NCBI GenBank assembly: GCA_947626795.1
Contig: CANQTH010000021.1
Span: forward strand, 1-37,495
From: an uncultured Lachnospiraceae bacterium
GTDB taxonomy: Bacteria; Bacillota; Clostridia; Lachnospirales; Lachnospiraceae
Length of the DNA stretch: 37,495 nt
Direction: 5' to 3'
In this document: in pieces, positions 1-37,495 of the stretch
Position numbering within the stretch: the first letter of the stretch is position 1
How the letters are laid out: every line of letters starts with the position of its first letter
Translations under genes and position numbers: made by a program
Notes under the pieces: generated by a model
The model's database searches: none
Seen by the model: the letters and a program-made list of their open reading frames with translations, nothing else
What the model was told of the DNA's origin: nothing

Positions 1-664
1 GGGCGTGCTGGAAGTCGTATTCGAGGACGCGCAGGGCGATGGAATTGTCCGATCTCATCTGCGCCTCGAAGTGAAAGGCGCGCCCGCCGATGGAAAAGGT
101 GGTGTCCGCGCTGCGCCCGGTAAGGTCGCCGCGGACATATTCATGGTTCGGGAAAAAGATATTGCTGTCAGGCGGGAAGTCCGTGAGGAAGAAGCCGTTG
201 ACGAAATGGACGATGGCCTGGTTGGAGAGGGAGAAGATGCGCTTGAAGACGCGGTCATAGATGGGCAGGCTTTGGTCAGCCTGTGCTGGCGGCGCGCCTG
301 CGGGCGCGGCTTTGCTGTGTTCTTTTTCGATATGGATCACTTCCTTTGTGTGCTGTGGGTTTATAAAGCTGCCAGGTTCGCGCAAGAGAGGCGGAAGCAG
401 GCTGCCCGGAATGCTTGCGAGCCGTAAGTCTGTAAAATGAAAGGTTTGAGAGTGCGGACGCAGATTGCGAAAATAATGGATTTGTGCGAGGGGGACAGAT
501 ACAATCTGCTCGAAATGCTTGTGAGCTGTAAGGTTGCGAAGTTGATGCCCGGAATGCTCGTGAGTCGCAAGTCTGTAAAATGAAAGGTTCGTAAGAAGGT
601 GGATGCAATCTGTCCGAAAGGAATCTGTCAGAGGGCGTCTGCCCCTGGAACTGCCGAACGGCAT
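1..664 (-). CDS. Rpn-type PD-(D/E)XK nuclease / putative transposase family protein, 5' part (runs off the left edge)
   Basis: The reverse strand is open from the ATG at 664 to the window edge. The part encoded by about 1-255 matches the Rpn / PD-(D/E)XK transposase-like family that is abundant in Lachnospiraceae. It has the YDRVFKRIFSL entry motif, then a core with an Asp (ADTTF) and a Glu-x-Gln (FEAQM), the expected spacing for the nuclease active site. Family members are linked to recombination-promoting DNA cleavage; that role is by homology. The start is uncertain. ATG 664 has an AGGGA eight bases upstream and a consensus promoter behind it, but the first ~110 residues are built on nucleotide repeats read in different frames and do not look like conserved protein. 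GTG at 340 would leave the usual short N-terminus but has poor RBS spacing. The C-terminus lies outside the window. Confidence 0.72.
   Translation of the reverse strand, partial: MPFGSSRGRRPLTDSFRTDCIHLLTNLSFYRLATHEHSGHQLRNLTAHKHFEQIVSVPLAQIHYFRNLRPHSQTFHFTDLRLASIPGSLLPPLLREPGSFINPQHTKEVIHIEKEHSKAAPAGAPPAQADQSLPIYDRVFKRIFSLSNQAIVHFVNGFFLTDFPPDSNIFFPNHEYVRGDLTGRSADTTFSIGGRAFHFEAQMRSDNSIALRVLEYDFQHA
404..591. repeat. Three imperfect direct repeats in the 5' region of the left Rpn gene
   Basis: Units begin at about 404, 508 and 547. The first and third share about 43 bases nearly unchanged (cccggaatgc, then g-c-g-a/t-g-a-g, then aagtctgtaaaatgaaaggt) and lie 143 bases apart. The middle one is shorter and more diverged. 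143 is not a multiple of three, so the copies are read in different frames if the region is translated. This argues that the repeats arose as DNA and that the long N-terminus is recent or untranslated. Confidence 0.75.
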
Positions 665-704
665 AAGTAAAATCCCTGGATGTGGATGATTTTCACATAG
701 CTGG

Positions 705-734
705 ATTATAGCGGGACAGGGATGCGTTTGTCAA
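705..734 (-). promoter_or_regulatory. Consensus sigma-A promoter for the left Rpn gene
   Basis: On the reverse strand there is a perfect -35 box TTGACA (729-734) and a perfect -10 box TATAAT (705-710), 18 bases apart. Transcription would start near 698 and run leftward, leaving about 34 bases of leader before the ATG at 664. An exact match to both hexamers is unusually strong for a gene of this family. Confidence 0.8.
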
Positions 735-854
735 TGGATATGAAGGAGTTTATGAAATTTTTAGAAATGCACTGCCCAAGCCAGAGCGTTGCGTTTGCCG
801 CAAAGGCGGTCCCATCCCCTGTTTATGCAAAACGTAAAACCCGTAAACCCACGA

Positions 855-882
855 TTGCAAAAATTCTTTGCTTTTGTAGAAT
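855..882 (+). promoter_or_regulatory. Possible promoter for the kinase-topoisomerase operon
   Basis: TTGCAA (855-860) and TAGAAT (877-882) are separated by 16 bases and lie about 60 bases before the kinase start. An overlapping alternative, TTGCTT (868-873) with TAGTAT (891-896), is weaker. The rest of the divergent gap 735-941 shows no further recognisable feature. Confidence 0.35.
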
Positions 883-941
883 GATTATGGTAGTATAGCA
901 ATGTATTTGTGTTTTTAAGCCGCGCGGGAGGGGGAAAACGT

Positions 942-1724
942 TTGCTTGGGCAGGGCGATGTCTTGGAAGGAAGGTACGAGGTCAAAGGGAAGCTGGGCGA
1001 AGGCGGCTCCTCGCTCGTGTTCCTCGCTTACGATACGAAAAGCGGGGAAAACCGCGCGGTCAAAGAGATCGAAGGCAAAAGGGACGGGCAGGCGCGCCGC
1101 GCCGCGCGCAGGGAGGCCGGGCTGGTGCAGAGGCTGCGTTACCCGTATTTCCCGAAAATAGAGGAACTCATCGAAAAAGAGGACGCCAGCTACCTTGTCA
1201 TGGAATACCTGGAAGGGGAGACGCTGGGGCGGCTTTTGGCGCGCAAGGGGGCGCAGCCCGCGTCGGACGTGGTAAAATGGGCGGAAAGCCTGTGCCTGAT
1301 GTTGGGATACCTGCATGAGGCACAGCCGCCCGTCCTATATCGCGACATGAAGCCCGCCAACGTCATGCTGCAGTCCGGCGGTAATCTGCGCCTGCTCGAC
1401 TTTGGCGCGGCGCAGGAAATGGGGCGGGGAGACGGCTTAAGCTTCGGGACAAGGGGCTACGCCGCGCCGGAACAGCTTGCCGGGGACGGGAGCCTGGACG
1501 CGCGGACCGACATATACGGGCTGGGCGCGACGATGTACCAGCTTTTGACGGGGAAGGACCCGGGCGAGTTTCCCTGCGGGAAGTATGGGATCCGCCATTG
1601 GAACCGGAGGCTTCCGGCTAAGCTGGAGAGGATCGTGAAAAAATGCACCCGCCCAGAGAAAGAGGGCCGTTACCCTTCCTGCGAGGCCCTGCGGGCGGAA
1701 TTAGGGAAATTAGGGCGGCTGTGA
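942..1724 (+). CDS. Soluble Hanks-type serine/threonine protein kinase
   Basis: A single protein kinase domain fills almost all of the 260 residues. Visible motifs are the Gly-rich loop GEGGSS (about 20-25), the ATP-anchoring Lys41 in AVKEI, catalytic Asp135 in YRDMKPAN (Tyr replaces the usual His of HRD), Asp153 of DFG, and GYAAPEQ in the activation segment. There is no membrane segment and no PASTA repeat, so it is cytosolic, unlike PrkC/StkP. I chose the TTG at 942 because a GGGAGGGGG ribosome binding site lies seven bases before it; a GTG at 909 is in frame but lacks an RBS. It is followed after 20 bases by the topoisomerase genes, so it is probably co-transcribed with them. Its substrate cannot be read from the sequence. 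No paired PP2C phosphatase is present. Confidence 0.9.
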   Translation: MLGQGDVLEGRYEVKGKLGEGGSSLVFLAYDTKSGENRAVKEIEGKRDGQARRAARREAGLVQRLRYPYFPKIEELIEKEDASYLVMEYLEGETLGRLLARKGAQPASDVVKWAESLCLMLGYLHEAQPPVLYRDMKPANVMLQSGGNLRLLDFGAAQEMGRGDGLSFGTRGYAAPEQLAGDGSLDARTDIYGLGATMYQLLTGKDPGEFPCGKYGIRHWNRRLPAKLERIVKKCTRPEKEGRYPSCEALRAELGKLGRL

Positions 1725-1744
1725 GGCCGGGCGGATAGGAGAAA

Positions 1745-10210: not shown

Positions 10211-11017
10211 ATGGATGAAAAAAAGAGGCAGGCCCAGGCGCTGGCGGCGCGGGTTGTGTTTGTGATCGTGGTCTTATGCATTTGGGAATACGTTGCGAAA
10301 TCCGGGCTTATGGGCGAGAAATCCGAGCTGATCTTCCCGTCGCTTGAGTCGATCGGGAGCGCGTTTATCCGGAATTTTGTCGAAGGGTACGCGGGGATCT
10401 CCCTGTGGGCGTACATTGGGAATTCGATGCGGCTGCTGCTGGAGGGCCTGCTGATCGGGATCCTGCTGGCGTTTTTGCTGAGCGGGCTTTCCATGATAAG
10501 CAGGGTGTTTTACGATATCTGCAACCTGGTGATCTCGGTCTTCGACCTTTTGCCGGGCGTCGCGCTGCTTCCGGTCGTCATTATCATTTTTGGCGTGAAG
10601 CCGGGCGTCATCGTGTTCCTGGTCGTGCATGCCGTGTTGTGGCCGATGGCGCGGAATGTCCTGGACGGTTTTCTGGCGGTCCCGCGCATCTATATCGAAG
10701 GCGGCATGAATATCGGCCTGAACAACTTGTCGCTGCTGTTCGGCGTGTACCTCCCGGCGGCGACCTCGTATATTGTGTCCGGCTTGAAAGTCGGCTGGGC
10801 GAGGGCGTGGAGGGGTTTGATCAGCGCGGAGATGATCTTTGGCGTGGCCTCCTGTCCGGGCATCGGGCTGTTCATCAACCAGATGCGCACGAATATGAAC
10901 AATGCGGAAATGTACGCGACGCTGGTAGTTATCATTATCATTGGACTGATCGTGCAGTACGGCGTGCTTTCGCCGATTGAGAAATGCACAGTGAAAAAAT
11001 GGGGAATGTCAAGATGA
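10211..11017 (+). CDS. ABC transporter permease, NitT/TauT (SsuC-like) family
   Basis: 268 residues with about six membrane segments. The cytoplasmic EAA loop (about residues 155-205) has [26 protein letters not shown] and [11 protein letters not shown], as in SsuC/TauC/ThiX-type importers. It should form the membrane channel for the ATPase encoded next, with which it overlaps by four bases (ATGA). Importers of this family take up sulfonates, nitrate, thiamine precursors or similar small molecules through a periplasmic-type binding protein. No binding protein gene is present in this cluster, so the substrate cannot be assigned. The RBS AATAGGAGAA precedes ATG 10211. Confidence 0.88.
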
Positions 11018-11775
11018 CGAAGAATGAGAATTGTATTTTAGAGGTAAAGAACGTATCAAAGATTTTTGACGTCGGCACGGAACAGGAAAAAGGCGTTCTG
11101 CACGACGTGAGCTTAGAGCTTGAGCGGAGTGAATTCCTGTGCGTCTTAGGGCCTTCCGGATGCGGGAAGACGACCCTGCTGCGGTGCATCGCGGGATTTG
11201 AGGACTACGAGGGGAGCGTGCTTGTAAACGGCGCAGAGCGCAGGAAGCCCGGAACCGACCGGATCATGGTATTCCAAGATTTCAACCAGCTTTTCCCGTG
11301 GAAAACGGTGGAGAAGAACATCCAGTACCCGTTAAAGATCCAGGGGATCCGCGACAAGGCGGAGCTGAAGCGGCGGACGGAAGAGGCGCTCGCGATGGTG
11401 AAGCTCTCCGGGCAGGAAAAATACTATCCGTACCAGTTATCCGGCGGGATGAAGCAGCGCGTCGCGATCGCGAAGGCGCTGGCGCTCAAACCGAAGATCA
11501 TATTGATGGACGAGCCGTTCGCGGCGTTAGACGCGATGACGCGCAACGAGCTTCAGTCGGAGCTTCTGCGCATTTCCATGGAAGAGAAATGCACCGTGAT
11601 CTTCATCACGCACAACATCCAGGAAGCCATCGTGCTGGGGACGCGGATCATAGTCCTGGCGGAGGGCGGGAAGATCGTCGTGGACGAGAAGAACGCGATC
11701 CCAAGGCCGGTCACGCCGGCTTCCGAAGGATACGGGGCGACGTGGGAACGGCTGCATCGTGCGCTATACCAGTAA
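11014..11775 (+). CDS. ABC transporter ATP-binding protein, NitT/TauT (SsuB-like) family
   Basis: 253 residues. Walker [10 protein letters not shown] (46-54, Lys52), Q-loop in [12 protein letters not shown], signature LSGGMKQRV, Walker B ILMDEPF and the switch His in FITHNIQEA are all intact, so it should be an active ATPase. I start at ATG 11014, which overlaps the permease stop as ATGA. The in-frame ATGs at 10984 and 10999 would embed the start deep in the permease gene and have no better RBS. The permease partner is fixed by this coupling. The next genes are nadB and nadC, which makes an NAD- or cofactor-related substrate possible but unproven. Confidence 0.9.
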
Positions 11776-11784
11776 TGGTATAGC
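11763..11784 (+). other. Hairpin overlapping the ABC ATPase stop codon
   Basis: An 8-bp perfect inverted repeat, GCTATACC and GGTATAGC with a six-base loop, spans the TAA stop (11773-11775). It is followed by GTATTTTC, not a true U-tract. It could be a weak terminator or an mRNA 3'-end stabiliser. Confidence 0.5.
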
Positions 11785-11881
11785 GTATTTTCGGTAGTGG
11801 AGATCAGGATAAGGCAGTTGCGGAAGATGAGCGGCAAGGGAACATCGCATAGCGTATTTTCGGCAGTGGAAATCAGGATAA
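11781..11881. repeat. Direct duplication between the ABC ATPase gene and nadB
   Basis: A 32-base sequence beginning tagcgtattttcgg occurs at 11781-11812 and again at 11850-11881, 69 bases apart, with few differences. It fills most of the intergenic space before nadB. Confidence 0.85.
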
Positions 11882-11896
11882 AAGCAGGTGGGGGAT

Positions 11897-14572: not shown

Positions 14573-16328
<1,756 letters not shown>

Positions 16329-16620: not shown

Positions 16621-18300
16621 ATGGAACAAAGAGAGTTGTTTAACATAGCGGGCCGGGAAGAGTTTGAGTATATCATGCGGGTGTTCGGGGCGTGTACGGA
16701 TGATTACCTGTTCTTTTTTGACCTGGATGAGAATTATTACAGCATATCGGAGCGGGCGGCCGAGCGGTTCGATCTGCCGTCGAACCATTTTTACAACGCG
16801 GGAGAGGCGATCCGCAAGATCGTGCATCCGGAGGATTTCGAGGGCTTGAAGCGGGATATCCAGGAGCTGCGGGAAGGGAAGAAGACGCAGCACAACCTGG
16901 AATACCGCTGGGTGGACCGTCAGGGGAAGACCGTATGGATCAGTTGCCGCGGCGTGATCGCCACGGAGGGGTCCAGAGTCCTGATCGGGCGCGTGACGGA
17001 GATCGGGAGCAAGCGCAAGGCGGACAACATCACGGGGCTGTATGCCGAGCGGCGTCTGCAGTACGACTACCAGAATATCCAAAGCGAGGGCATTTACAAG
17101 CGCGGCACGCTTTTGCGCATCGGGATCGACAATTTCAAGGAAGTGAACGAGCGTTACGGGATGGACGTCGGGGACGACATCCTCAGACTGATCGCCAGGT
17201 GCTTAGAGAAAGTCAGCGGGGCGAACCGCTGCTACCGCTTAAGCGGGGACGAGTTTGCCGTGCTGATGATGGAGGACGACGTCCAGAAGGCGCGGAAGAT
17301 GTACCACAAGGTCCGCATCATGATCGAGCAGGACCGGAGGGCGGAAGGGTATCAGAATTTCTATACGATCTCCGCCGGGGTCGTAGGCTTCTCTTACCGG
17401 GAGCTGGAGTTCGAGCAGTTGTGCAATTTTTCGGAATTTTCCTTGGGCGAGGCGAAGAAGAACGGGAAGAACTGCTCTTATGTATTCAGCCAGGAAGATT
17501 ACGATTCCTATATGAAGAGCATTGACATCCAGGAGAAGCTGCGGCACGCAGTGAACCATGGGTTTGAGGGATTCGAGGTCTATTACCAGCCGATCGTGTC
17601 GGCGAAGACGGAGCGCATCGTCGGCGCGGAGGCGCTGCTGCGGTTTTCCTGCGAGGAATACGGGATGCTCTCGCCGGGCGTGTTCATCCCGATCTTAGAG
17701 GAGAGCGGGCTGATCATCCCAGTCGGCGAATGGGTGTACCAGACGGCGATCCAGCAGAGCCTCCAGTGGCAGAAGCTGATACCGGAATTCCGGATCAACA
17801 TCAACCTGTCCTTCATCCAGATCCGCAAGTCGGACGTCGTGAGCGGGATCATGTCCTCGATCGAAAAAGCGGGGATCGACCCCTGCACAGTCCTGTTTGA
17901 GTTTACGGAGAGCGGGCTGATCTCTTACGATGATTCCGTGCAGGAACTGTTGGACGTGCTGAACGAGAACCAGGTAAAGATCGCGCTGGATGATTTCGGG
18001 ACGGGATATTCTTCCCTCGCATATTTGCAGAACCTGCGGGTGAACCTCTTAAAGCTCGACCGGAGCTTCACGTCGAAAGCGGTGCGGAATGATTTCGACT
18101 ACAGCCTGGTGGGCTATATCGTGGAGATGGCGCACAGCATAGGCATGACGGTTTGCTTTGAGGGGATCGAGACGAGAGAGGAGCTTGAGAAGCTCTTGAA
18201 GCTCCATCCAGACTATATCCAGGGATTTTATTACGGCAGGCCCGTAAATAAAGAAAATTTCTACGAGCAGAACCTGACAAAATACAATAAGGTGTCCTGA
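16621..18300 (+). CDS. PAS-GGDEF-EAL cyclic-di-GMP signalling protein
   Basis: 559 residues, no membrane segment. The N-terminal PAS-like fold is about residues 18-128. The GGDEF domain (about 135-290) has the signature RLSGDEF near 207, where Ser replaces the first Gly. The EAL domain (about 310-550) has EALLRF near 337, the Asn of INLS, FEFTES, DDFGTGYSS near 457, KLD, EGIET near 514 and the Gln of YIQGFYYGRP. All EAL catalytic and metal ligands are present, so phosphodiesterase activity is likely. Cyclase activity is possible, since SGDEF variants can be active, but a regulatory GTP-binding role is an alternative. It has its own promoter, and its 3' end is duplicated downstream. Confidence 0.93.
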   Translation: MEQRELFNIAGREEFEYIMRVFGACTDDYLFFFDLDENYYSISERAAERFDLPSNHFYNAGEAIRKIVHPEDFEGLKRDIQELREGKKTQHNLEYRWVDRQGKTVWISCRGVIATEGSRVLIGRVTEIGSKRKADNITGLYAERRLQYDYQNIQSEGIYKRGTLLRIGIDNFKEVNERYGMDVGDDILRLIARCLEKVSGANRCYRLSGDEFAVLMMEDDVQKARKMYHKVRIMIEQDRRAEGYQNFYTISAGVVGFSYRELEFEQLCNFSEFSLGEAKKNGKNCSYVFSQEDYDSYMKSIDIQEKLRHAVNHGFEGFEVYYQPIVSAKTERIVGAEALLRFSCEEYGMLSPGVFIPILEESGLIIPVGEWVYQTAIQQSLQWQKLIPEFRININLSFIQIRKSDVVSGIMSSIEKAGIDPCTVLFEFTESGLISYDDSVQELLDVLNENQVKIALDDFGTGYSSLAYLQNLRVNLLKLDRSFTSKAVRNDFDYSLVGYIVEMAHSIGMTVCFEGIETREELEKLLKLHPDYIQGFYYGRPVNKENFYEQNLTKYNKVS

Positions 18301-18396
18301 ACTGCGCGCCTGGCAGGGGGCGCGGCGGCTTATCGTGACAAAATACAATAAGGCGTCCTGGCCCGCGCGCCTGGCAAGAGGCGCGGCGGCAGGCGG
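18275..18396 (+). repeat. 61-bp tandem duplication at the GGDEF-EAL gene end
   Basis: Units at 18275-18335 and 18336-18396 share tgacaaaatacaataagg, then gtcctg, then gcgcgcctggca and gcgcggcggc...cttat. The first unit contains the last codons and TGA stop of the GGDEF-EAL gene; the second fills the gap up to the HAD gene. Confidence 0.88.
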
Positions 18397-19209: not shown

Positions 19210-19219
19210 GAGGGCGCGG

Positions 19220-19614
19220 CGGCCAGCCCGTTCAGATGCATATAAGTCAAGTCAAGCTGAAGAAGGCGTTTTCCGGGTTTGGGGAGCACCTTTCGCGCGT
19301 CCGCGGGGCTTGAGGCGGCTTGAGGCGGGAGATCGGCGGCCAGCCCATTCAGGTGCATATAAGCTAAGTCAAGGTGGAGAAGGCGTTTTCCGGGTTCGGG
19401 GAGCGCCTTTCGCGCGTCCGCGGGGCTTGTGATGGGAAATCGGCCCGTTCAGATGCGGACGATTGGATGCTGGAAATCATTTTTCAGGCGGCAGCCGCGG
19501 CCCTTATCGGCCAGCCCGACGCGGTACAGCTCTGACGCGTCTAAATCAAGCTGGAGAAGGCGTTTCCCAGGTTCGGGGAGCGCCTTTTGCGCGTCCGCGG
19601 GGCTTGTGACAAGC
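19220..19614 (-). repeat. Tandem relics of the tmcAL 3' end
   Basis: The segment at 19508-19614 inside tmcAL (starting cggccagccc, containing gagaaggcgttt, ttcggggagc and gcgtccgcggggctt) recurs at 19337-19441 and 19220-19315, both beyond the stop codon. A fourth short fragment at 19441-19460 contains the stop codon (19449-19451). The outer copies have stops and shifts and are not coding. They occupy the whole 239-base gap between the convergent HAD and tmcAL genes, where no terminator is visible. Confidence 0.88.
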
Positions 19615-20912
19615 GGCAGGCTGCCGTGGGATTTGACGGCGGAGAGCAGCGCGGCGGCGTCTTTGCGGAAGCCCAGCACGCGCAGGTAGGACGGCGCGCC
19701 CAGCGCGTCGAGGTCTTCCTGGCGGACGCTCAATAAGATATGGAGGAACAGGCGGCTGATCCTGGCATAGGTGACGTCCTTTGTGTGCAGGCGGCTGCAG
19801 AAGCTTGTCCAGGAGGAAAAAGAGGGAAGCTCTTTTTTGATCCTCGCGGCGAGCGCGGGGGAGCTGTCCGCGTAGGAGGCCAGCTCTTCGCAGGACGAAA
19901 AGGCCAGCTTGTAGTGGAGCGGCAGGGAAAGGTCGTCTTCCGATAAAAGCGGGTGCGGGTAATCTTCCAGGAGGGCGCGGGAAGGCGCGGGCAGGGACGC
20001 GGCAACCTCGCAGGGGAGCTTCCGCTTCTGGGCCGCCGCTCCGCCCATGCCAGGAGCCGCCGCTTCGCCTGCGCCAGGATTCGCTTCATCTGCGCCAGGA
20101 GTCGTCGCTCCGCCCGCGTTAAGGGCCGCCGCTCCGTCCATGCCAGGAGCCGTCGCTCCGCCTGTGCCAGGAGCCGCCGCTTCGCCCATGCCAGGAGCCG
20201 CCGCTCCGCCCGCGCCAAGGGGAGCCAGGAATCCTTCTTCCTTTAAGCGGGCGCGGATGGCTGAGGCGGGGCCGTATCCCCCTTCTAAGGAAGCACTGCG
20301 GTGTCCCCCGCCCTTCCGCGCGAGCGGGAACGGGATGAGGCCGGGGGCGTCGCGAAAGACGGCTTTTAAGTATTCCACCGCGAGGATATTGTTGGGGGAG
20401 GAGAGCGCGTCCGCGAGCAGATCCGCGAGCGGCCCTGCGGCGGGCGACCCGTTCGCGGAAAAATACGATCTTAGCGCGGCAAGGCGCGCGGCCGGGAAGG
20501 AGCGGCCTTTTTTCAATTCCGCTTTCAGGGCCTCGCGGAAGGCCGCGGGCTGGCGCAGGAGGGTTTCAGCCGCCGCTAAAAGGATTCCGTAAGGGCTGTT
20601 TTCCGTGCCGAAGCAAAGATGCGTGACGACCCCCGTGTTTTTCAGGAGGGAGACGCCCCCTTTCGCGAAATATTCAGCGCTCGATGTGGCGTAAAGGGCC
20701 GGGAGCTCCAGCACGAGATCCGCGCCGCAGTTTAGGGCCGCCTGCGCGCGGCTGTATTTTTCCAGGAGCGCGGGCGCGCCGCGCTGCACAAAATTCCCGC
20801 TCATTGCGACGATGGCATGATCGGCGCCGATTTCTTTTTTCAGCGTCTCAAGCTGGTAAGCGTGTCCGTTGTGGAACGGATTGTATTCTGCGATGATCCC
20901 GATGACTTTCAT
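19449..20912 (-). CDS. tmcAL: tRNA(Met) cytidine acetate ligase (TmcAL, YlbM-like nucleotidyltransferase)
   Basis: 487 residues. The N-terminus GIIAEYNPFHNGHAYQL has the HxGH nucleotidyltransferase signature, followed by AMSGNFVQRGAP and the LELPALYATSSAEYFAKGG segment typical of TmcAL. The family makes ac4C at the wobble position of elongator tRNA-Met using acetate and ATP. This fits its position opposite acetate kinase. Usual length is about 400. The excess is an Ala/Gly/Pro-rich stretch of about 75 residues (roughly 225-300) encoded by a 24-bp minisatellite at 20032-20220. The RBS AGGAAGGAG precedes ATG 20912. Both ends of the gene are flanked by decayed tandem copies of themselves. Confidence 0.92.
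   Translation of the reverse strand: MKVIGIIAEYNPFHNGHAYQLETLKKEIGADHAIVAMSGNFVQRGAPALLEKYSRAQAALNCGADLVLELPALYATSSAEYFAKGGVSLLKNTGVVTHLCFGTENSPYGILLAAAETLLRQPAAFREALKAELKKGRSFPAARLAALRSYFSANGSPAAGPLADLLADALSSPNNILAVEYLKAVFRDAPGLIPFPLARKGGGHRSASLEGGYGPASAIRARLKEEGFLAPLGAGGAAAPGMGEAAAPGTGGATAPGMDGAAALNAGGATTPGADEANPGAGEAAAPGMGGAAAQKRKLPCEVAASLPAPSRALLEDYPHPLLSEDDLSLPLHYKLAFSSCEELASYADSSPALAARIKKELPSFSSWTSFCSRLHTKDVTYARISRLFLHILLSVRQEDLDALGAPSYLRVLGFRKDAAALLSAVKSHGSLPLVTSPADAQKALPEPGKRLLQLDLDASELYRVGLADKGRGCRLKNDFQHPIVRI
20032..20220 (-). repeat. 24-bp minisatellite inside tmcAL
   Basis: Eight units of 24 bases (one is 21 bases) run from 20032 to 20220, each a variant of gccgccgctccgcccatgcc plus agga. 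On the coding strand they give eight-residue repeats of the type PGxGGAAA. All unit lengths are multiples of three, so copy-number change keeps the reading frame. The tract is an insertion relative to ordinary TmcAL. Confidence 0.93.
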
Positions 20913-20982
20913 GACGTTCTCCTTCCTGCCGCTGGCTTGACAAGTAAAGATTGATTGGTGGGCGCATCCCGATGACTTTCAT
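20848..20982 (-). CDS. Upstream ORF created by duplication of the tmcAL start region (44 codons)
   Basis: A second copy of the tmcAL initiation region (RBS GGAAGGGGG, ATG and the first codons MKVIGM) lies 70 bases upstream of the true start. Because 70 is not a multiple of three, this ATG (20982) opens a different frame that runs 44 codons across the true tmcAL start and stops at 20848. It lies within the transcript expected from the promoter at 21037-21065. It may lower tmcAL translation or be a translated relic; a protein function is unlikely. Confidence 0.45.
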   Translation of the reverse strand: MKVIGMRPPINLYLSSQRQEGERHESHRDHRRIQSVPQRTRLPA

Positions 20983-20999
20983 GACGTCCCCCTTCCTGC
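20896..20999. repeat. Duplicated translation start region of tmcAL
   Basis: The sequence from atcccgatgactttcatgacg through the ccttcctgcc of the RBS occurs at 20896-20929 and at 20966-20999 (70-base period). The inner copy is the real start; the outer one starts the overlapping upstream ORF. Confidence 0.9.
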
Positions 21000-21036
21000 C
21001 CGCCGCGCGCGGCGGCCTGCGCGTTTAAGTAACTAG

Positions 21037-21080: not shown

Positions 21081-21225
21081 GTAATGATCCAGCCTTGCGG
21101 CTTCCTGGTTACGGGATCCTGGCTCATTGAAAGTTTGCCTTCGGTAAAGAGCCGGATTCCAACTCGGCAAAATTTACACGTTCTTACGGGCTTTGCGGCA
21201 AGCGCAAAATCCGGGAAACGGTTAT
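21081..21225 (+). repeat. Multi-hairpin intergenic element, copy 2 (diverged)
   Basis: About 145 bp in the same orientation as the 22529 copy. It starts GTAATGATCCAGCC, keeps the GGATCC-GGCTC / GAGCCGGATTCC arms around TTTGCC-TTC-GGTAAA, and keeps the ACTCGGCAAAATTTACAC stretch. The right hairpin is weakened and the right terminus is degraded (cgggaaacggttat). It lies between the tmcAL and ackA promoters in the 411-base divergent gap 20913-21323. Apart from it and the duplicated tmcAL start, that gap holds only the two promoters. Confidence 0.85.
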
Positions 21226-22517: not shown

Positions 22518-22528
22518 GCGGGCGCGCA

Positions 22529-22675
22529 GTAACAGTTCAGCCTTGCGGCTTCACAGTTACGGGATCCGGCTCATTTCAAGTTTGCCTTCGGCAAAGAGCC
22601 GGATTCCCACTCGGCAAAATTTACACATTCTTACGGACTTTGCAGCAAGTGCAAAGTCCTGGGCTGAACTGTTAC
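22529..22675 (+). repeat. Multi-hairpin intergenic element, copy 3 (best preserved)
   Basis: 147 bp bounded by a perfect 14-bp inverted repeat, GTAACAGTTCAGCC and GGCTGAACTGTTAC. Inside are a nested hairpin (GGATCCGGCTC with GAGCCGGATTCC, enclosing TTTGCC-TTC-GGCAAA, 22562-22607) and a second 10-bp hairpin GGACTTTGCA-GCAAG-TGCAAAGTCC (22635-22659). It begins 11 bases after the ackA stop. No protein-coding content is convincing; reverse-strand ORFs reading QDFALAAKSVR are by-products of the repeat. Confidence 0.92.
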
Positions 22676-22682
22676 GACGTAA

Positions 22683-22829
22683 GTAATCGTTCAGCCTTGC
22701 GGTTTCACAGTTACGGGATCCGGCTCATTTCAAGTTTGCCTTCGGCAAAGAGCCGGATTCCCACTCGGCAAAATTTACACACTCTTACGGACTTTGCAGC
22801 AAGTGCAAAGTCCTGGGCTGAACGGTTGC
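22683..22829 (+). repeat. Multi-hairpin intergenic element, copy 4 (tandem to copy 3)
   Basis: 147 bp, nearly identical to copy 3 and separated from it by seven bases. The terminal repeats differ slightly (GTAATCGTTCAGCC and GGCTGAACGGTTGC). Both hairpins are intact. Copies 3 and 4 together fill most of the 436-base gap 22518-22953; the rest is the promoter and leader of the HPt gene. Confidence 0.92.
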
Positions 22830-22880: not shown

Positions 22881-22953
22881 GTATATGCTGCACATACGCC
22901 GACGGTTTTTTCGGCTTATTTGTGGATATATTGCTGAAAAGGAGAGGTTAAGG

Positions 22954-23313
22954 ATGGGTTTGCTCGAAGAGCTAAGAGAATTGGGAGTGAACGTGGACGA
23001 AGGAATGGGACGCCTTGGCGGGAACGCCAAGATTTATGAGAAGATGCTCGGGTCCTTTTTGAAGATGATGGGTGAATATGCGGTCAGCCCGGATTTCGAC
23101 GGGGAGGAATACGCAGACGTCATTGAGAAGGCGCACGCCATTAAGGGGGCGGCTGCCAATCTGTCGCTTACCCCAATCTTTGAGGCATATTCGGATATTG
23201 TGGATCTGCTGCGCAAGGGGCAGCCGGAGCAGGCGCGCGAGAAGCTGGTTGGCGTGCTGCCGACCCAGGAGAAGATCATAAGCGCGATCAGGGGGAACGC
23301 CGCGGCCCAGTGA
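22954..23313 (+). CDS. Free-standing HPt (histidine phosphotransfer) domain protein
   Basis: 119 residues, all helical in character. The phospho-accepting His61 is in EKAHAIKGAAANLSL, the HPt signature. No kinase, receiver or membrane part is attached, so it should shuttle phosphate between a hybrid kinase and a response regulator encoded elsewhere. ATG 22954 follows AAGGAGAGG. A longer in-frame reading from a TTG at 22852 lies in the promoter region and is rejected. The chemoreceptor gene starts 130 bases downstream behind its own promoter, so the two may share a pathway but need not be one transcript. Confidence 0.88.
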   Translation: MGLLEELRELGVNVDEGMGRLGGNAKIYEKMLGSFLKMMGEYAVSPDFDGEEYADVIEKAHAIKGAAANLSLTPIFEAYSDIVDLLRKGQPEQAREKLVGVLPTQEKIISAIRGNAAAQ

Positions 23314-31514: not shown

Positions 31515-33197
31515 ATGAAGGCAAGGAAAAAACTGCCCGCGTATAGTTTTGGCGTTTTGGCGATCGTCGCCGTGGCCTTGCTTGGAAATATGAATTTTGA
31601 GAGGAAGAACATCACGGCGCTTGCGGCGATCCTGGAGCTGCCCAGGGAGGAACTCCGGGCGCATTTTAGCCTGCTGTCCGCATGGGCGGTCGTCAGTTCG
31701 AAGGGGATGGGACTGATCCTGCCCATTGTGGCGGCGATCCCGTCCGCTTCCTATGTATATGAAGAGGTCGCGGGCCGATTTTATATGGGCGCTGAGATGC
31801 GCATGGGGCGGCGGCGGTGCGCATGTTCCCATTTCCGTTATGCCGCGCTGAGCGGCGGCGCGGTCGCGGCGGCGGGCCTCTTTTCCTATGCCCTGCTGGC
31901 GGCGTGCGTTTTCCCGGTGGGCGTGGAGACGGATGGGATGGCGCTTAGCGAGAGCCTGCAAGAGGTTGCGGCCGGATATATCCTGCCGGATGTCCTGTAC
32001 TTTACGTTGTATGGAATGGCGATGTCCGCGCTGGCGTCCTTGCTGGTCTTTTTGTGCGCAAAGCTGTATTTTTCCCTCAGCGTGCTGTTCATCCTGGCCC
32101 ATATGATCGGGGAATGGGGGCCTGCCATGCAGGGGGAGATGTGGGCCGCGGCGGCGATGCTTGCGGCGGTCGCGGCTGCGTTTTGGCCTGTGTGGGGTCG
32201 GAAGAGCAGGCGGATGCAAGGGGGCGGGCTGGACGCCCTGCCTGTGGCAAGCCTGCCGCATATGCGCGTTTGGAAGCGGCGCGCCGCGCCTGGGATCGGC
32301 GGAAGAGAACGGAAGGAACGGGAGGCCTCCCGGGGAAGGGAAGCCTTGCTGGTGGCGAAGAGCGAATACAGGAAATGGCTGGCAAGCCCGCGGATGATCC
32401 TGTTCGCCATTGCGTTTTTGCCGATGTACGACAATGTCGTCCACCCGCTGCTTGAGATGTCGGATGCGATGGGAAGCCCGCTGAACGTTTTGGAACCTTG
32501 CATAGGGGCGCTAAATACATGGATGGGGATGCTGATCTTTGGCATCGCCTATATGGCGCTCATGTCCCCGTTCCCGACGGCGGACGGCAATATGCTCTTC
32601 TATGTGTCCCGCATGGGGAAACGGGCATGGATCTTGGGCGAGATGTTGTTCCAGGCCATGGCGGCCGTCACATACAGCCTGCTCATAGCGGCCGTCATGG
32701 CAGTCCCGGCGGTCGGGCGGTCGTTCTTTGCCAATGGGTGGAGCCTTGTGGTGACGGATTATGGCAGGCTGTACGGCGGGGGCGAGGTGGGGCTGACGGA
32801 GGTCATCCCGCCGAACCTGTATTTCCAGATGTCCCCGTTCCGCGCGTTTCTGTTTTCCTATGGGCTGTTCACGCTGTTCTTGCTGTTCTGCGGGATGGCG
32901 TTCGTGGCAGGGTGCATGTATCAGAAACGCCTGCAGGCGTTTGCCCTTCTGGCGCTGCAGACCGCGGCGGGGTGCATTCTGGCATTTACGCCCAGGAAGT
33001 CGGCGGGAATGTGGCTGTTCCCGGTGAACCATGCCTTTTTGGCGGTGCATTACCGGAGGTATTACCGGAAATATGAGTTTTCGCCCTGGGCGTCCTTTGG
33101 GATCCTGCTGGTTTTGACGCTTTTGATGGCGGCGGCCATGTACCGGAAGGCAAAGGACGTAAGCATGGACATGATCGGCGGGGAAGTGCTGAAGTGA
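31515..33197 (+). CDS. Large polytopic membrane protein, probably a fused ABC-2-type permease
   Basis: 560 residues with about 10-12 membrane helices in two groups (about 9-215 and 290-530), joined by a basic cytoplasmic linker (about 225-285). Each half contains a similar stretch. One is KGMGLILPIVAAIPSASY followed by a YMGAEMRMGRRR loop; the other is MGMLIFGIAYMALMSPF followed by a FYVSRMGKRAWI loop. This suggests two permease subunits fused into one chain. No ATPase motif is present; the ATPase is supplied by the gene at 33321. With that gene it should form an exporter of the ABC-2 or bacteriocin-immunity type. The substrate may be one of the secreted proteins or a foreign peptide. Confidence 0.75.
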   Translation: MKARKKLPAYSFGVLAIVAVALLGNMNFERKNITALAAILELPREELRAHFSLLSAWAVVSSKGMGLILPIVAAIPSASYVYEEVAGRFYMGAEMRMGRRRCACSHFRYAALSGGAVAAAGLFSYALLAACVFPVGVETDGMALSESLQEVAAGYILPDVLYFTLYGMAMSALASLLVFLCAKLYFSLSVLFILAHMIGEWGPAMQGEMWAAAAMLAAVAAAFWPVWGRKSRRMQGGGLDALPVASLPHMRVWKRRAAPGIGGRERKEREASRGREALLVAKSEYRKWLASPRMILFAIAFLPMYDNVVHPLLEMSDAMGSPLNVLEPCIGALNTWMGMLIFGIAYMALMSPFPTADGNMLFYVSRMGKRAWILGEMLFQAMAAVTYSLLIAAVMAVPAVGRSFFANGWSLVVTDYGRLYGGGEVGLTEVIPPNLYFQMSPFRAFLFSYGLFTLFLLFCGMAFVAGCMYQKRLQAFALLALQTAAGCILAFTPRKSAGMWLFPVNHAFLAVHYRRYYRKYEFSPWASFGILLVLTLLMAAAMYRKAKDVSMDMIGGEVLK

Positions 33198-33205
33198 TAG
33201 GGAGG

Positions 33206-33311
33206 CGGCGCGTGAGAGCAAGGTTATGGAGACAGGCGCGGCAGGCGAAGGATTTGAAAACGACAGGCGGAATCGCGAGACGGCGCGTGAGAGCAAGGCT
33301 ATGGAGACAGG
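33206..33311. repeat. 75-bp-period direct duplication before the ABC ATPase gene
   Basis: The 31-base sequence cggcgcgtgagagcaagg-t/c-tatggagacagg occurs at 33206-33236 and at 33281-33311. The second copy runs directly into the RBS of the ATPase gene. The period is 25 codons and one frame is open across both, but without an RBS or protein-like composition I do not call a gene. Confidence 0.88.
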
Positions 33312-33320: not shown

Positions 33321-33953
33321 ATGATCCGAGTGGAGAATGTGTCCCTGACGCTGAACAGGCGCGGGATATTAAAAGAAGTGTCCCTGTGGGCGGGCAGGGG
33401 AGAGGCGGTCGGCCTTGTGGGCGGCAATGGCTCCGGGAAGACGATGCTGATGAAATGCATCTGCGGGTTTCAGACGGCGTTCACCGGGGAGATCGAAGTG
33501 TTTGGGGAAAAGATCGGGAAGGAGGCCGAGTTTCCCAAAAGCACGGGGTTCATCCTTGAGACCCCGGGGTTCATGCCGTACATGAGCGGCTATGAGAACT
33601 TGAAGGTTTTGGCGGACATCCGCAAGAAGATCGGAAAAAAGGAGATCTTTTCGTATATGGAACTCGTGGGCCTGGACCCGGAGGACAAGAAAAAGGTAAG
33701 GAAGTATTCTTTGGGGATGAAGCAGCGGCTTGGGATCGCGCAGGCGCTGATGGAAGATCCGGAGATATTGATCCTGGACGAGCCTTTTAACGGGCTGGAC
33801 AAAGGGATGGCGGAAAAGATGCGGGACGTGCTGAACGCGGAAAAAGGGAAAGGGAAGACCATCCTCCTGGCCTCGCACAATGAGAAGGACATTGCGTATA
33901 TCTGCGACCACACATATGAACTGGACGCGGGGCGGGTCGTTGATGTGGCGTAA
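33321..33953 (+). CDS. ABC transporter ATP-binding protein
   Basis: 210 residues, a short stand-alone nucleotide-binding domain. Walker A is GGNGSGKTML, the signature is YSLGMKQRLG (Leu in place of the second Ser/Gly of LSGG, common in exporters of the BcrA/EcsA kind), Walker B is LILDEPFNGLD, and the switch His is in LASHNEKD. It should energise the permease encoded just upstream. The GGAGGAAGAGG RBS is strong. The length and signature are like lantibiotic-immunity and antibiotic-efflux ATPases, not importers. It is the last gene of the island; the hairpin before the tRNA gene follows. Confidence 0.92.
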   Translation: MIRVENVSLTLNRRGILKEVSLWAGRGEAVGLVGGNGSGKTMLMKCICGFQTAFTGEIEVFGEKIGKEAEFPKSTGFILETPGFMPYMSGYENLKVLADIRKKIGKKEIFSYMELVGLDPEDKKKVRKYSLGMKQRLGIAQALMEDPEILILDEPFNGLDKGMAEKMRDVLNAEKGKGKTILLASHNEKDIAYICDHTYELDAGRVVDVA

Positions 33954-34001: not shown

Positions 34002-34002
34002 A

Positions 34003-34076
34003 CGTGCGTGAGAGGATTCGAACCCCCGACACCTTGGTCCGTAGCCAAGTGCTCTATCCAGCTGAGCTACACACAC
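34003..34076 (-). tRNA. tRNA-Arg (anticodon ACG)
   Basis: The reverse strand folds into a full cloverleaf. The acceptor stem is GTGTGTG with CACGCAC (one G-U pair). The D arm is GCTC/GAGC. The anticodon stem is CTTGG/CCAAG with loop CTACGGA, giving anticodon ACG (read as ICG after deamination). The T loop is TTCGAAT. The discriminator base is G, and CCA is not encoded. It has its own promoter and terminator. Confidence 0.97.
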
Positions 34077-34109
34077 ATAAAAACGCCCACCGTACGTGGA
34101 ACTTTTTAT

Positions 34110-34138
34110 ATCTTATCCCGATTTCACATTTTTGTCAA
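34110..34138 (-). promoter_or_regulatory. Promoter for tRNA-Arg
   Basis: On the reverse strand, TTGACA (34133-34138, perfect), 17 bases, TAAGAT (34110-34115). Transcription would start about 25 bases before the tRNA. The rest of the gap to 34281 is AT-rich. A rightward promoter around TTGATG (34165-34170) is possible but weak. Confidence 0.85.
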
Positions 34139-34281
34139 GAGAGATTTTAAAAAAATATAAAATATTGATGAAAAAATTTAGAAAGTGTGATACCATATAA
34201 CCAGCGTCACGGTTTTTGGGGGAGGCCGGGACGGAAAATGGGAAAACGGCGCCAAAATGGCGGATGGGTAGGAGAACAGGG

Positions 34282-34764
34282 ATGGCGAAGCAGGAATTTT
34301 TGCAGGAATTGCGTGCCGCGCTGCAAGGAGAGGTCAGCCAGTCGGCGATCAATGAGCATTTGCGGTATTATGACAGCTACATTACGGAAGAGGCCAGGAA
34401 GGGGAAGAGCGAAGAAGAAGTCGTTTCCATGCTGGGAAGCCCCCGCCTGATCGCCAAGACGCTGATCGACACGTCAGAGCAGTTCGGGTCGTATGGAGGC
34501 CAGGAGAAAGGCTATCGGGAGGAAAGCGCGCAGGGACGCGCGGGGACGTCCGGCGGCTTTGAGGGCGGCTACCCATACCAGGGGCGGGACGGGCGGCCGA
34601 TGGGACGCGGGACGGGCGTCTGGTACCGGAAGCTGGTTCTTGCCCTGGCGGCTGTCGTCATTGTCATTGCCCTGGCAAACGTAGTGGCATTCCTGCTGCC
34701 GCTGCTGGTTCCGATCATATTGGTCGTGTTAATATATACCCTCATTTTCGGAGGAAGAAGATAA
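34282..34764 (+). CDS. HAAS/DUF1700 family membrane protein
   Basis: 160 residues. The N-terminal HAAS/DUF1700 domain (about 1-65) has the family signature of a short helical region ending EEEVVSMLGSPRLIAKTLI. A Gly/Tyr/Arg-rich linker (about 66-112) follows. Two closely spaced hydrophobic segments (117-157) end in GGRR. These proteins sit in the membrane with the HAAS domain inside; their biochemical role is poorly known. No padR gene accompanies this one. ATG 34282 with AGGAG seven bases upstream is preferred over an in-frame start at 34216. The next gene begins 20 bases after it, so the two are probably co-transcribed. Confidence 0.85.
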   Translation: MAKQEFLQELRAALQGEVSQSAINEHLRYYDSYITEEARKGKSEEEVVSMLGSPRLIAKTLIDTSEQFGSYGGQEKGYREESAQGRAGTSGGFEGGYPYQGRDGRPMGRGTGVWYRKLVLALAAVVIVIALANVVAFLLPLLVPIILVVLIYTLIFGGRR

Positions 34765-34784
34765 ACGGGAGATAGGAGAGCGTG

Positions 34785-37055
34785 ATGGACACAGTAAAAG
34801 TAGGCAAGGGGAAACGTTTTTTGAAAAAGGGCGACAAGGTGAGGGGGCTTTACATCATTTTGCAGGGAAGCGTCCGCGCCGTTTCAAAGAACGACGAGGT
34901 CGATATGGAGGCCGGGAGCATCGTGGGGATGCTGGACAGCGATTCTGGCAATTATGAGTGCGATTACGTGGCGAATACGGACTGCGTGTTCTATGCTTTC
35001 CCCTACAATGAGCCGGAAGATTATAAGAAGATCTTTACGGACGAGGAAAAATATGTGGCGGTCTTCGCGATGTCGGCCATGCACCAGACGGCGTCGCTGC
35101 TCAAGCGTTACAACGCGTTTTACAAGAAGGCCCAGGATTATTATAAATTTCTGGTGGGATGCCATGAGGAATACGGGAAGCTCTGCGACGACTATGGGCT
35201 TCCGGTGAAGCCGTTCGGGCGGTTGGCTTCGTTGACGCCGCTGCACTTAGACGGGAAGATCGAGCTCTGGACGATGGAGTATTACGGGAGGATGTCCGAG
35301 CTTTCCTTAAAGTCGCTCGACCAGTTCCTTGCCAGGGACCACGCGATCGGCATCGGCTCCATTTTGAACGCGGTCTGCTGGATGAAAAGCGCGATGTCGA
35401 AGATCGTGGAGATCAAGGATTACCTGAATACGCATCGGGGGCTTCTGCTCTCCGCGGAGTCTGAGAATATGTTCCAGATGTATTTCGAGCTGGCGCGGAA
35501 GGCGGCGAAGACCGGGGTGGACATGGAGCCTCTGTTCCAGAAGATCTCGGAGATCATGAATTATGCGCGGGACAGCCGGATGTTCTCGGAAAAGGTGATG
35601 GGGCTGTGCTTTGAGGAATATGAGAAATATGATTTCTACCAGGCGGACGAGACGGACATCATGGCGGAAGAGGCGCAGAAGGAAGTTTATGAGGAAGGCA
35701 TCGACCATTTGGAGCAGATTTTGGTCTATTCCGGGTACGAGGAGGAAAAGGCGGAGAGCTTTCGAAAGGCCATGGGGGAATATAAGGCCCTGCCGGACCG
35801 GTATGCGACGACGGACGACGTGCGCAAGCTGCGCAGGAAGATCACGCAGGATTTCTATGAGATATATGAGCTGGCGTTTTTCCGCTCGCTGGACGACAGG
35901 CGCGTGCCTGTGTCCGTGAAGATGTTTTTGAATTTCGGTTTCATGGACGTGGGCCTGGCCGGAGAGGAGGCAGCCCACAGCCTGCACGACATGGCGCAGG
36001 AGCTGTACCGCTGCAAGGCGGACAACGTCTTTACGATCTACGAGTGGTTAAAAAGCATTGAGCGCGGGGAAAACGAGCCGTCCCGGAACGAGTTCGATTT
36101 AGATTACACAGGATATTTGAACGAGCAGAAAAAGACGGGCAAGATCACGGCGGCCGAGCTTGCCGTCCTTGCCAAGGACAACCGGAAGAAGACGGAATTT
36201 GAGATGCACAATATGTTTGTGTCTAACAACCGCGCGACGTACGGGAAGATCTCCACGTTCTGCGCCGTTTGGCATGAGGACGACATCGTCGGCTCGGTGG
36301 AGAAGATGCTTGTGACGGCGGAAAAGGTAAACGCGGCGATCGACGAGATCCGGAACATAGATTTCTCCTTGTTTTACCGGGAAGTCGGTTTTTCCGACCC
36401 GAAGCATGACATCAACCGCGAGATGATACAAAAGGAAGTCATCCCGTATGTGATCCTGATGCCGAACCCGGGCAGCCGTGCGATGATGTGGCAGGAGACG
36501 GCGGGCATCAAAAAGGACACCCAGGCCAGGTTTGTGTTCCCAATCCTTACGTCGGTCGATATTTCGGAGATGATGATCGAGGTATGCGGACGTTTCCGCT
36601 GGGAGATGTGCCGGAAGATCCAGGGCGTGCGCTGGAACGATATCACAGAGGCGTCCCTGACTTCGGAGTACAACGATTATATCCAGTATTACCGGAAGAA
36701 TTCAAACTTGTCCGCGGAAGCGAAAGATAAGATAAAGAACGCGCTTGCCAGGGCGAAGAACAATTACCGGGAGGTATTTGTCAAGGATTACCAGAGCTGG
36801 CTGAAATATGAGGCGAAGGGGAGCTTCCGCTTAAATAAGGTAGCGCGGGAAATCCTGTTCCGCTATTGCCCGTTTAACAAGGAAATCCGCAAGGAGCTTG
36901 GGATCAACCCGATGTTCCGGGAGATGTTCGAGAAGTACGACATCTTGAAATCAAGGAAAGTGCGCCATGTGGAGACATGGTATGACCGCTACAAGAAAAA
37001 GGGCGGAGAGATTACGGAGGAATTGCAGCAGAATTTGGATTTTTATGATATGTAA
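34785..37055 (+). CDS. Large protein with N-terminal cyclic-nucleotide-binding-like domain, function unknown
   Basis: 756 residues, no membrane segment or signal peptide. The first ~95 residues look like a Crp/cNMP-binding beta-roll (FLKKGDKVRGLYIILQGSVRAV, then MEAGSIVGMLD). The cap residues that bind phosphate in Crp (the RET.A motif) are not evident, so ligand binding is doubtful. The remaining ~660 residues are helical, acidic and rich in Tyr, Lys and Glu. They have no domain I can name and no helix-turn-helix, so this is not a Crp-type transcription factor. ATG 34785 follows GATAGGAGAG; the GTG three bases upstream is less well spaced. Co-transcription with the HAAS membrane protein suggests a membrane-associated stress or signalling role, by inference only. 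Confidence 0.8.
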   Translation: MDTVKVGKGKRFLKKGDKVRGLYIILQGSVRAVSKNDEVDMEAGSIVGMLDSDSGNYECDYVANTDCVFYAFPYNEPEDYKKIFTDEEKYVAVFAMSAMHQTASLLKRYNAFYKKAQDYYKFLVGCHEEYGKLCDDYGLPVKPFGRLASLTPLHLDGKIELWTMEYYGRMSELSLKSLDQFLARDHAIGIGSILNAVCWMKSAMSKIVEIKDYLNTHRGLLLSAESENMFQMYFELARKAAKTGVDMEPLFQKISEIMNYARDSRMFSEKVMGLCFEEYEKYDFYQADETDIMAEEAQKEVYEEGIDHLEQILVYSGYEEEKAESFRKAMGEYKALPDRYATTDDVRKLRRKITQDFYEIYELAFFRSLDDRRVPVSVKMFLNFGFMDVGLAGEEAAHSLHDMAQELYRCKADNVFTIYEWLKSIERGENEPSRNEFDLDYTGYLNEQKKTGKITAAELAVLAKDNRKKTEFEMHNMFVSNNRATYGKISTFCAVWHEDDIVGSVEKMLVTAEKVNAAIDEIRNIDFSLFYREVGFSDPKHDINREMIQKEVIPYVILMPNPGSRAMMWQETAGIKKDTQARFVFPILTSVDISEMMIEVCGRFRWEMCRKIQGVRWNDITEASLTSEYNDYIQYYRKNSNLSAEAKDKIKNALARAKNNYREVFVKDYQSWLKYEAKGSFRLNKVAREILFRYCPFNKEIRKELGINPMFREMFEKYDILKSRKVRHVETWYDRYKKKGGEITEELQQNLDFYDM

Positions 37056-37139
37056 AGAATTCCCGCGGGATATGCCGGAAGATGCGGGCGGAGGATGGTC
37101 TTCTGCCTGCAGCCAGGCGGCCCGTGGGATTGTTTTGCG

Positions 37140-37225
37140 CAAATGATCCGGATCCCGGTTCCGCGATGCGGAAGCGGGATTGGCTGTTCGGCAATTCGAT
37201 CGCGCCGGAAAGCAGTGGATGAGGG
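37140..37225 (-). pseudogene. Decayed partial copy of the Rpn-type gene 3' region
   Basis: 37159-37217 repeats 37388-37447 of the adjacent gene (ttccgcgatgcggaagcgg, then ttcggcaattcgatcgcgcc, then aagcagtgg), 229 bases apart. Translated leftward it gives PLLSGAIELPN followed by RFRIAEP, against PLLPGAIELPN and RFRIAEL in the intact gene, and then loses the coiled coil. It lies just beyond the stop codon of that gene. Confidence 0.82.
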
Positions 37226-37495
37226 TTATTGTGTGGATTGTTTCGCTTCCAACTCTGCGATGCGCTTCTTGAGTTCCTCATTTTCGCTGATGTAGCGCAA
37301 GAGATCGCTGGCGTATTTTCGGTTCTCGTCAGCATATTGCGAGACTTTCTGCTCTAATTCTGTAAACTGCGAGACTTTCTCTTCCAGTTCCGCGATGCGG
37401 AAGCGGTATTTGTCGTTTGGCAATTCGATCGCGCCGGGAAGCAATGGCTTCATCATGATCAGACCCCCTGTCTTTTCGGTAATGTCCGCGCATAT
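37226..37495 (-). CDS. Rpn-type PD-(D/E)XK nuclease family protein, 3' end (starts beyond the right edge)
   Basis: The reverse strand is open from the right edge to the stop at 37226-37228, about 89 codons. It contains the LLPGAIELPNDKYRFRIAEL motif found near the C-terminus of Lachnospiraceae Rpn-type/putative transposase proteins, followed by a coiled-coil tail with heptad-like repeats (EEKVSQ, EQKVSQ, then EELKKRIAEL). Methionines at 37456 and 37453 are internal, since the frame stays open upstream of them. The nuclease domain lies outside the window. The left-edge gene is a second member of the family. The coiled-coil tail contains its own short repeat (gcgagactttct twice near 37340 and 37369). 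Confidence 0.75.
   Translation of the reverse strand: MCADITEKTGGLIMMKPLLPGAIELPNDKYRFRIAELEEKVSQFTELEQKVSQYADENRKYASDLLRYISENEELKKRIAELEAKQSTQ

Follow-up and report, generated by a model that had tools for sequence, protein, structure and literature searches.

What process leaves short, imperfect direct duplications at so many gene boundaries of a single genome? The question is raised by the window analysed here, that is, the whole stretch of 37,495 nucleotides of contig CANQTH010000021.1 from an uncultured Lachnospiraceae bacterium, in which a preliminary description had listed eight such duplications. All eight are real: each was confirmed in the sequence within a few bases of the position first given for it, with copy identities of 0.88-0.94 (Table 1), and the number of such duplications far exceeds what chance would produce. 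The copies differ from site to site, which argues, as had been proposed, for a repeated process rather than for a single mobile repeat. More than one process is represented among the eight. Three sites (11780, 20896 and 33202) display a copy-insert-copy form, three (16197, 18275 and 19217) are plain tandem repeats, and two (403/546 and 37155/37384) are long-spaced pairs.

Table 1 Duplications of the window and the genes beside them, in order of position
Feature	Position	Strand	Remarks
Long-spaced pair, 44-bp copies 403-446 and 546-589, period 143	403..589	.	No gene edge established there
ABC-transporter ATPase gene upstream of site 11780	10999-11775		Pfam ABC_tran
Site 11780, first target copy (A1), 33 bp	11780..11812	+	4 bases past the ABC-transporter ATPase stop
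Site 11780, insert (S), 36 bp	11813..11848	+
Site 11780, second target copy (A2), 94% identical	11849..11881	+	6 bases short of the ORF at 11888
40-bp unit in about 3 tandem copies, spanning the stop (16225) of the chaperonin (GroEL) gene	16197..16328	+	Pfam Cpn60_TCP1
Two 55-bp copies, period 61, gap 6, spanning the stop (18300) of the GGDEF/EAL gene	18275..18390	+
Two copies, period 117, between the HAD hydrolase gene and the HIGH_NTase1 gene	19217..19429	+
Site 20896, target copy (35 bp) with start codon and ribosome-binding site of gene 19449-20912	20896..20930	-
Site 20896, insert (S), 35 bp	20931..20965	-
Site 20896, second target copy, 94% identical	20966..21000	-
Site 33202, first target copy (A1), 35 bp	33202..33236	+	4 bases past the stop at 33197
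Site 33202, insert (S), 40 bp	33237..33276	+
Site 33202, second target copy (A2), 94% identical	33277..33311	+	9 bases short of the ABC ATPase gene (33321-33953)
Long-spaced pair, 64-bp copies 37155-37218 and 37384-37447, period 229	37155..37447	.

The gene content around these sites is varied. The ORF that follows site 11780 matches Pfam FAD_binding_2, and the gene upstream of site 33202 has no Pfam match. The gene at site 20896 matches Pfam HIGH_NTase1, and we take it to be TmcAL. The copy upstream of this gene places an additional ribosome-binding site and ATG before it; the frame opened by that ATG appears to overrun the true start and may lower expression of the gene. The interior of the same gene holds 24/48-bp repeats (20030-20221) with a period divisible by 3. 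Among the plain tandems, the repeat at 16197 has no copy-insert-copy form, and the pair at 19217, separated by a gap of 21, has a third copy at 19511-19606 that is 70% alike. A small ORF on the minus strand (37226-37456) has the second copy of the pair 37155/37384 at its 5′ end and the first copy past its stop, from which we guess that this pair is a gene remnant. A ninth tandem of 154 bp (22528/22682), absent from the original list, belongs to a family of dispersed intergenic repeats of about 147 bp, found in the window at 22528-22673 and 22682-22827 and partially near 21085-21215. This family has at least 46 matches in the genome and 91 BLAST hits in the 1.2-Mb sample described below, and copies at about 75% occur in a genome of the same genus (G017).

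We scanned for direct repeats at offsets of 25-300 with a score of 18 (match +1, mismatch -1.5), calling genes with a simple codon-score caller of our own making rather than a published one. Besides the window, the sample of the genome took in 20 stretches of 20 kb each and two batches added afterwards, in total 1,199 kb (about 41% of the genome) outside the native type III-A CRISPR array and the contig of the type I-C system. Controls amounted to 2,270 kb, made up of 80 loci (most of them titled as Lachnospiraceae, the rest being a few from other Clostridia and a single Atribacteria contig) and stretches of nine genomes of the same genus. The scan recovered 226 duplications from the genome's own sample, 132 of them outside coding sequences and 94 inside, every one of the latter having a period that is a multiple of 3; a single dinucleotide shuffle of its 60 loci yielded one duplication of any kind against the 226 observed. 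Non-coding duplications thus reached 11.0 per 100 kb, compared with 1.4 per 100 kb in the controls, where 32 lay outside coding sequences and four of those crossed a 3′ end. In the GC-rich part of the controls (21 loci above 0.5 GC, 353 kb) we counted 17 duplications of any type. This is a comparison of samples rather than of whole genomes, and it favours the initial impression that the density is raised. A link with the dispersed repeat was rejected: it overlaps 12 of the 132 non-coding duplications; this wider overlap test includes one copy-insert-copy site (L112:16279), and a narrower test restricted to the 40 sites of that class found none.

The copy-insert-copy class has a characteristic geometry. 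Its limits (about 1.5 copies, copy 28-46, period 60-78) were fixed after the first 21 stretches, and G051, which represents a second species and has the nearest type III-A Cas1 found, served as an independent check of them. The 1,199-kb sample contains 31 sites of about 1.5 copies and nine of about 2.5 copies, the latter with the form copy-insert-copy-insert-copy, giving 40 in all. Copies are typically 33-37 bp, gaps 32-40 bp and periods 67-75; within the window and the 20 stretches scanned first, a period of 69 alone came up six times. Across the 31 sites of 1.5 copies the periods run from 61 to 76 with a median of 70, and the gap is 28-40 bp in 28 sites and 19, 22 and 26 bp in the remaining three. 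The borders are sharp, with similarity ceasing at the two ends of each copy in the sites aligned in detail. Half-integer copy numbers were found in 37 of the 58 duplications with a period of 62-78, against an expected 18%, and in only 4/38 of those with shorter and 6/36 of those with longer periods. The copies are identical at five sites, where these newest copies measure 34-36 bp with no fixed length of 36. They differ by 3-18% in 22 of 27 sites, and the differences over 36 sites comprise 71 transitions and 11 transversions, a pattern as in old duplications. The nearest relative, about 70% identical over long alignments, is too distant to reveal an empty target site.

The target copies match the III-A repeat at 12.7 of 36 positions, with 13.3 in controls, and thus bear no resemblance to it, nor was a leader-repeat-like target found in this comparison, which was made with the III-A repeat only; such a target is a non-defining trait of type II-A integration in vitro. 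RNA fold energies of 27 copies, set against 1,500 random non-coding 36-mers with correction for GC, showed no excess of hairpins. The copy end in this genome displayed a weak purine and G bias (last base G in 15 of 27), and the G bias is absent in G051 (3/13). None of the sites holds the several spacers and near-identical repeats of a functional CRISPR array, and we found no sign of growth into arrays with different spacers: extra nearby copies occurred at 2 of 53 sites (L109:3645 and L174:8314, with identities of 76% and 62%), compared with 34 of 300 stretches of random non-coding DNA.

One insert was traced to its origin at L205:6907, where a 36-bp insert lies between identical 36-bp copies that contain the stop codon of a gene. 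This insert matches at 36 of 36 bases, on the other strand, a segment directly before the ribosome-binding site of another gene (L107:15369-15404), and homology ends at the borders of the insert. Two older inserts, L186:2656 and L173:16449, match host coding sequence at 29/33 and 28/34 positions, where one shuffle of each gave best matches of 23 and 24, and these matches also stay within the insert borders except for a few bases. Judging from these matches, which come from a search of about 41% of the genome, at least one of the 40 inserts, and probably three, is host DNA that was taken up at another place and inserted with target duplication. The insert of L186:2656 differs from its source (L117:7644) at four bases, each of them an A at the source that reads G in the insert. 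At three of the identical-copy sites no second copy of the insert within 3 mismatches was found in the whole genome, and at the fifth (L174:12383) the best match in the sample, with which alone it was compared, was 23/28. Two of the three source-less inserts had no match in viral contigs (exact 20-mers) or phages. In G051, 0 of 13 inserts had a source clearly above shuffles in 414 kb plus the array contig. The GC content is 58% in the inserts and 57-59% in the targets, compared with 42-43% in native spacers and 47% in intergenic DNA. The high value would fit host-like DNA that was never required to act as a spacer, although few host sources were traced, and none in G051.

The genome encodes machinery of matching dimensions. 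Two Cas1 proteins exceed the Pfam cut-off and have no stops. One belongs to a type III-A locus with Csm1-6, Cas1, Cas2 and a Cas6 match just below the curated cut-off; the Cas2 beside this Cas1 is over the cut-off, III-A being the locus where Cas2 was scanned. Its array, on C13, has 36-bp repeats with a variable last base. The other, a Cas1c with a small ORF beside it, belongs to a type I-C locus whose array, on C82, is built of 33-bp repeats. Among the 125 native spacers one is a self spacer, in the III-A array (L170:9017), which matches window positions 22932-22970 at 38 of 39 bases, so the CRISPR machinery can take up host DNA; its target is the start of a window gene. Part of a review (PMC10011333) likewise states that E. 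coli occasionally acquires host fragments. CRISPR adaptation by Cas1-Cas2, treated in passages of PMC6895254, is the established process in which a piece of 30-40 bp is taken up and joined to a target, with duplication of a target stretch of comparable length.

Four things are directly observed: the geometry of the sites; its excess over controls, both here and in G051; an insert with an identical counterpart at a distant host locus; and the presence in the genome of Cas1, Cas2 and arrays built on a similar plan. From these we infer that the copy-insert-copy sites are quite probably single spacers integrated outside arrays by the Cas1-Cas2 of the host cell, and that the enzyme would most likely be that of the III-A system. 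Under this proposal, Cas1-Cas2 would capture a fragment of about 33-40 bp and join it to both strands of a chromosomal site at positions about 35 bp apart, and gap filling would duplicate the 35 bp, placing one copy on each side of the insert. Where the target lies over a stop codon the upstream copy would preserve the gene, so that insertions at 3′ ends would survive. Later exchange between copies might sometimes yield copy-insert-copy-insert-copy sites (period about 70, 2.5 copies). Off-target Cas1-Cas2 spacer integration supplies a name that fits the copy-insert-copy class, where no named phenomenon had been known to fit.

If one Cas1 is responsible, the genomes with its nearest kin would be expected to show the class, and the five nearest were sampled. 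The nearest III-A Cas1 among 250 genomes of the family is that of G051 (65%), and a further draw of 397 held none nearer. In 414 kb of G051, leaving out the array contig, there were 73 duplications, of which 35 lay outside coding sequences and 38 inside, one of the latter with a period that is no multiple of 3. Thirteen of the 35 non-coding duplications have the copy-insert-copy geometry, and 12 of the 16 duplications with a period of 62-78 have half-integer copy numbers. The limits applied to G051 were slightly wider (period 62-80, copy 25-50); all 13 also fall within those of the first genome, as would one further site with a period of 61. The controls contain two non-coding sites of the class in 2,270 kb. 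When all positions are counted they hold four, against 32 in the genome's own sample, and the 21 high-GC control loci (353 kb) hold none. Meanwhile, G150, G156, G225 and G146, whose III-A Cas1 proteins are 51-59% identical, had no sites of the class in 265 kb, where 6.8 would be expected at the density of the first genome; arrays beside cas1 were judged native and left out of this count. A locus on a contig named uncultured Acetatifactor (L004:18644) shows a similar geometry with an insert that partly repeats the copy.

The test does not separate the two enzymes of the cell, since G051 also encodes a Cas1c-like protein (44%). It is thus possible, if somewhat unlikely, that the type I-C Cas1-Cas2, or both systems together, were responsible instead of III-A alone. 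Cas1 of both kinds is present in the two genomes that show the signature, and G150 and G156, which have the III-A enzyme and no Cas1c-like protein, show no sites. Of the nine same-genus control genomes, G017 has a long match to Cas1c at 34%, G024 a short one and the other seven none. The native arrays offer a second comparison, as their periods are 68-75 in III-A (median 71, n 66) and 65-70 in I-C (median 67, n 59). The periods of the 31 sites overlap with both: 15 of the 31 lie inside the I-C range, which itself overlaps that of III-A, and 25 of the 31 lie in 68-76. Their distribution is nearer to the III-A array (KS p 0.02), though this fit is only rough, and departs strongly from the I-C array (KS p 5e-11). 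Moreover, the copies at L205:6907, around the 36/36 insert, are 36 bp long, which is the length of the III-A repeat and not that of the I-C repeat (33).

The position of the duplications relative to genes was also surveyed. The 132 non-coding duplications comprise 52 across a 3′ end, four across a start, two across both and 74 intergenic, and random placement of the same spans, given that they do not fall inside coding sequences, predicts 26.5, 28.5, 17.1 and 59.9. The suggestion that such duplications survive at gene edges is part of the story, but the bias is toward 3′ ends rather than toward edges in general. It appeared from these whole spans that starts are avoided as strongly as ends are enriched, and this was not borne out when the 36-bp target, with the insert removed, was placed instead. 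Such targets overlap a stop in 18 of 38 sites, two of the 40 that lie inside coding sequences having been dropped, where 11.6% is expected (p 5e-8), and in 7 of 13 sites of G051, where 16.5% is expected (p 0.002). The avoidance of starts was not significant in either genome (3/38 against an expected 11.5%, p 0.35; 0/13 in G051, p 0.10). By type of gap, the 40 sites fell nine in 11.9 kb of convergent, 29 in 114 kb of codirectional and one in 27.5 kb of divergent gaps, with one dropped; the other 92 non-coding duplications of the genome fell 15, 60 and seven, with 10 dropped.

The bias toward 3′ ends is not confined to the class. It is present in the 40 sites (p 0.007) and in the other duplications of the same genome (KS p 4e-4), so that tolerance can explain much of it; in G051 it is present in the 13 sites (p 0.005) and was not detected in the other duplications (12 codirectional, p 0.59). 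Of the 24 sites that cross a 3′ end, 23 carry the stop codon within the upstream copy and the last has it one base beyond, which leaves the genes intact. Tolerance of 3′ ends together with intolerance of promoters can explain the direction of the bias, and selection would account for most of it. There may be more to it than selection: the Cas1-Cas2 of this lineage might be drawn to 3′ ends, for example by terminating transcription or DNA topology. Integration would then be a directed, continuing force of remodelling that may supply extra 3′ tails, small upstream frames or seeds of new arrays. We consider such attraction unlikely on present evidence.

Tolerance at gene edges is also part of an older explanation, namely replication slippage or microhomology-mediated tandem duplication, which had been suggested for all eight window duplications. 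It is adequate for 16197 and 18275, which consist of adjacent copies with no insert, and roughly so for 19217, and it probably fits many of the 92 other non-coding duplications, whose 3′-end bias is expected under tolerance. Such plain duplications are also raised in number (92 in 1,199 kb here and 22 in 414 kb of G051, against 30 in 2,270 kb of controls), and their excess in both positive genomes is outside the reach of the Cas1-Cas2 model. For the largest class, slippage is the wrong process, as it predicts adjacent copies without an insert and none of the 31 sites has that form. It predicts neither the gap of about 35 bp, nor the confinement of half-integer copies to periods of 62-78, nor an insert derived from elsewhere, and we therefore regard it as an improbable source of the copy-insert-copy sites.

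Still less probable is an unfamiliar mini-transposon, or another integrase that duplicates about 35 bp of its target. Integrases that make staggered cuts do leave copy-insert-copy structures, as in transposition, and transposons and MITEs resemble our sites in placing an insert between direct repeats. Their target-site duplications are usually far shorter, and we know of no transposase with one of 35 bp. A transposon with a common insert was rejected: the inserts of our sites share no sequence when compared with one another (the best pair has 19 matching bases), and one of them consists of sequence from an ordinary host locus. An artefact of assembly or binning is hardly credible, even in a draft of 144 contigs where repeats are difficult to assemble, given the divergence between copies, its excess of transitions and the recurrence of the signature in G051.

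Off-target spacer integration thus remains our preferred reading of the class, and it has a counterpart in the laboratory. Nivala, Shipman and Church (Nat Microbiol 3:310) reportedly described in 2018 the off-target integration of spacers as 'neo-CRISPR' loci in E. coli with overexpressed Cas1-Cas2, together with a few natural candidates elsewhere. As in those loci, a spacer-sized insert lies here outside any array, between flanks that are the duplicated target of approximately repeat length, and cas1, cas2 and a captured insert are likewise found. In length the sites agree with the native arrays only in part: the median period of 70 stands against 71 in the III-A and 67 in the I-C array, and the newest copies measure 34-36 bp where the native repeats have 36 and 33. 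The difference lies in number and setting: the events here are natural, 40 of them in roughly 41% of one genome and a further 13 in the 414 kb sampled from G051, and they gather at 3′ ends. The native arrays on C13 and C82 share the repeat-insert-repeat form and the size class, whereas our sites hold one insert each, between repeats that differ per site and are unlike the III-A repeat.

Passages of PMC9456107 and PMC11788318 cite off-target (non-canonical) spacer integration in E. coli (Nivala et al. 2018), and the former also proposes a partner protein that restrains Cas1 from integrating outside arrays. According to parts of PMC6895254, integration by the type II-A Cas1-Cas2 of Streptococcus thermophilus spread in vitro over non-CRISPR DNA, strongly favouring guanine and surroundings that resemble a leader-repeat junction; at the sites described here the border bias is no more than weak, and it appears in this genome but not in G051. 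Repeat length in that system depends, according to the same source, on a ruler element, and duplications away from arrays may therefore differ in length. A natural genome strewn with off-target integrations was not recognised in the titles, starts of abstracts and passages of the open-access literature that we searched. Off-target integration is known, and within that literature its genome-wide natural load appears to be new.

Extrapolated from 40 sites in about 41% of the genome, this load would amount to approximately a hundred misses in this genome. If our reading is true, these sites form a fossil record of unselected spacer capture, in which the uptake and insertion preferences of the integrase can be seen without selection for interference. 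The finding bears on the natural miss rate of CRISPR integrases and on the origin of new arrays, and it suggests a source of small insertions at the 3′ ends of genes which repeat searches would class as slippage.
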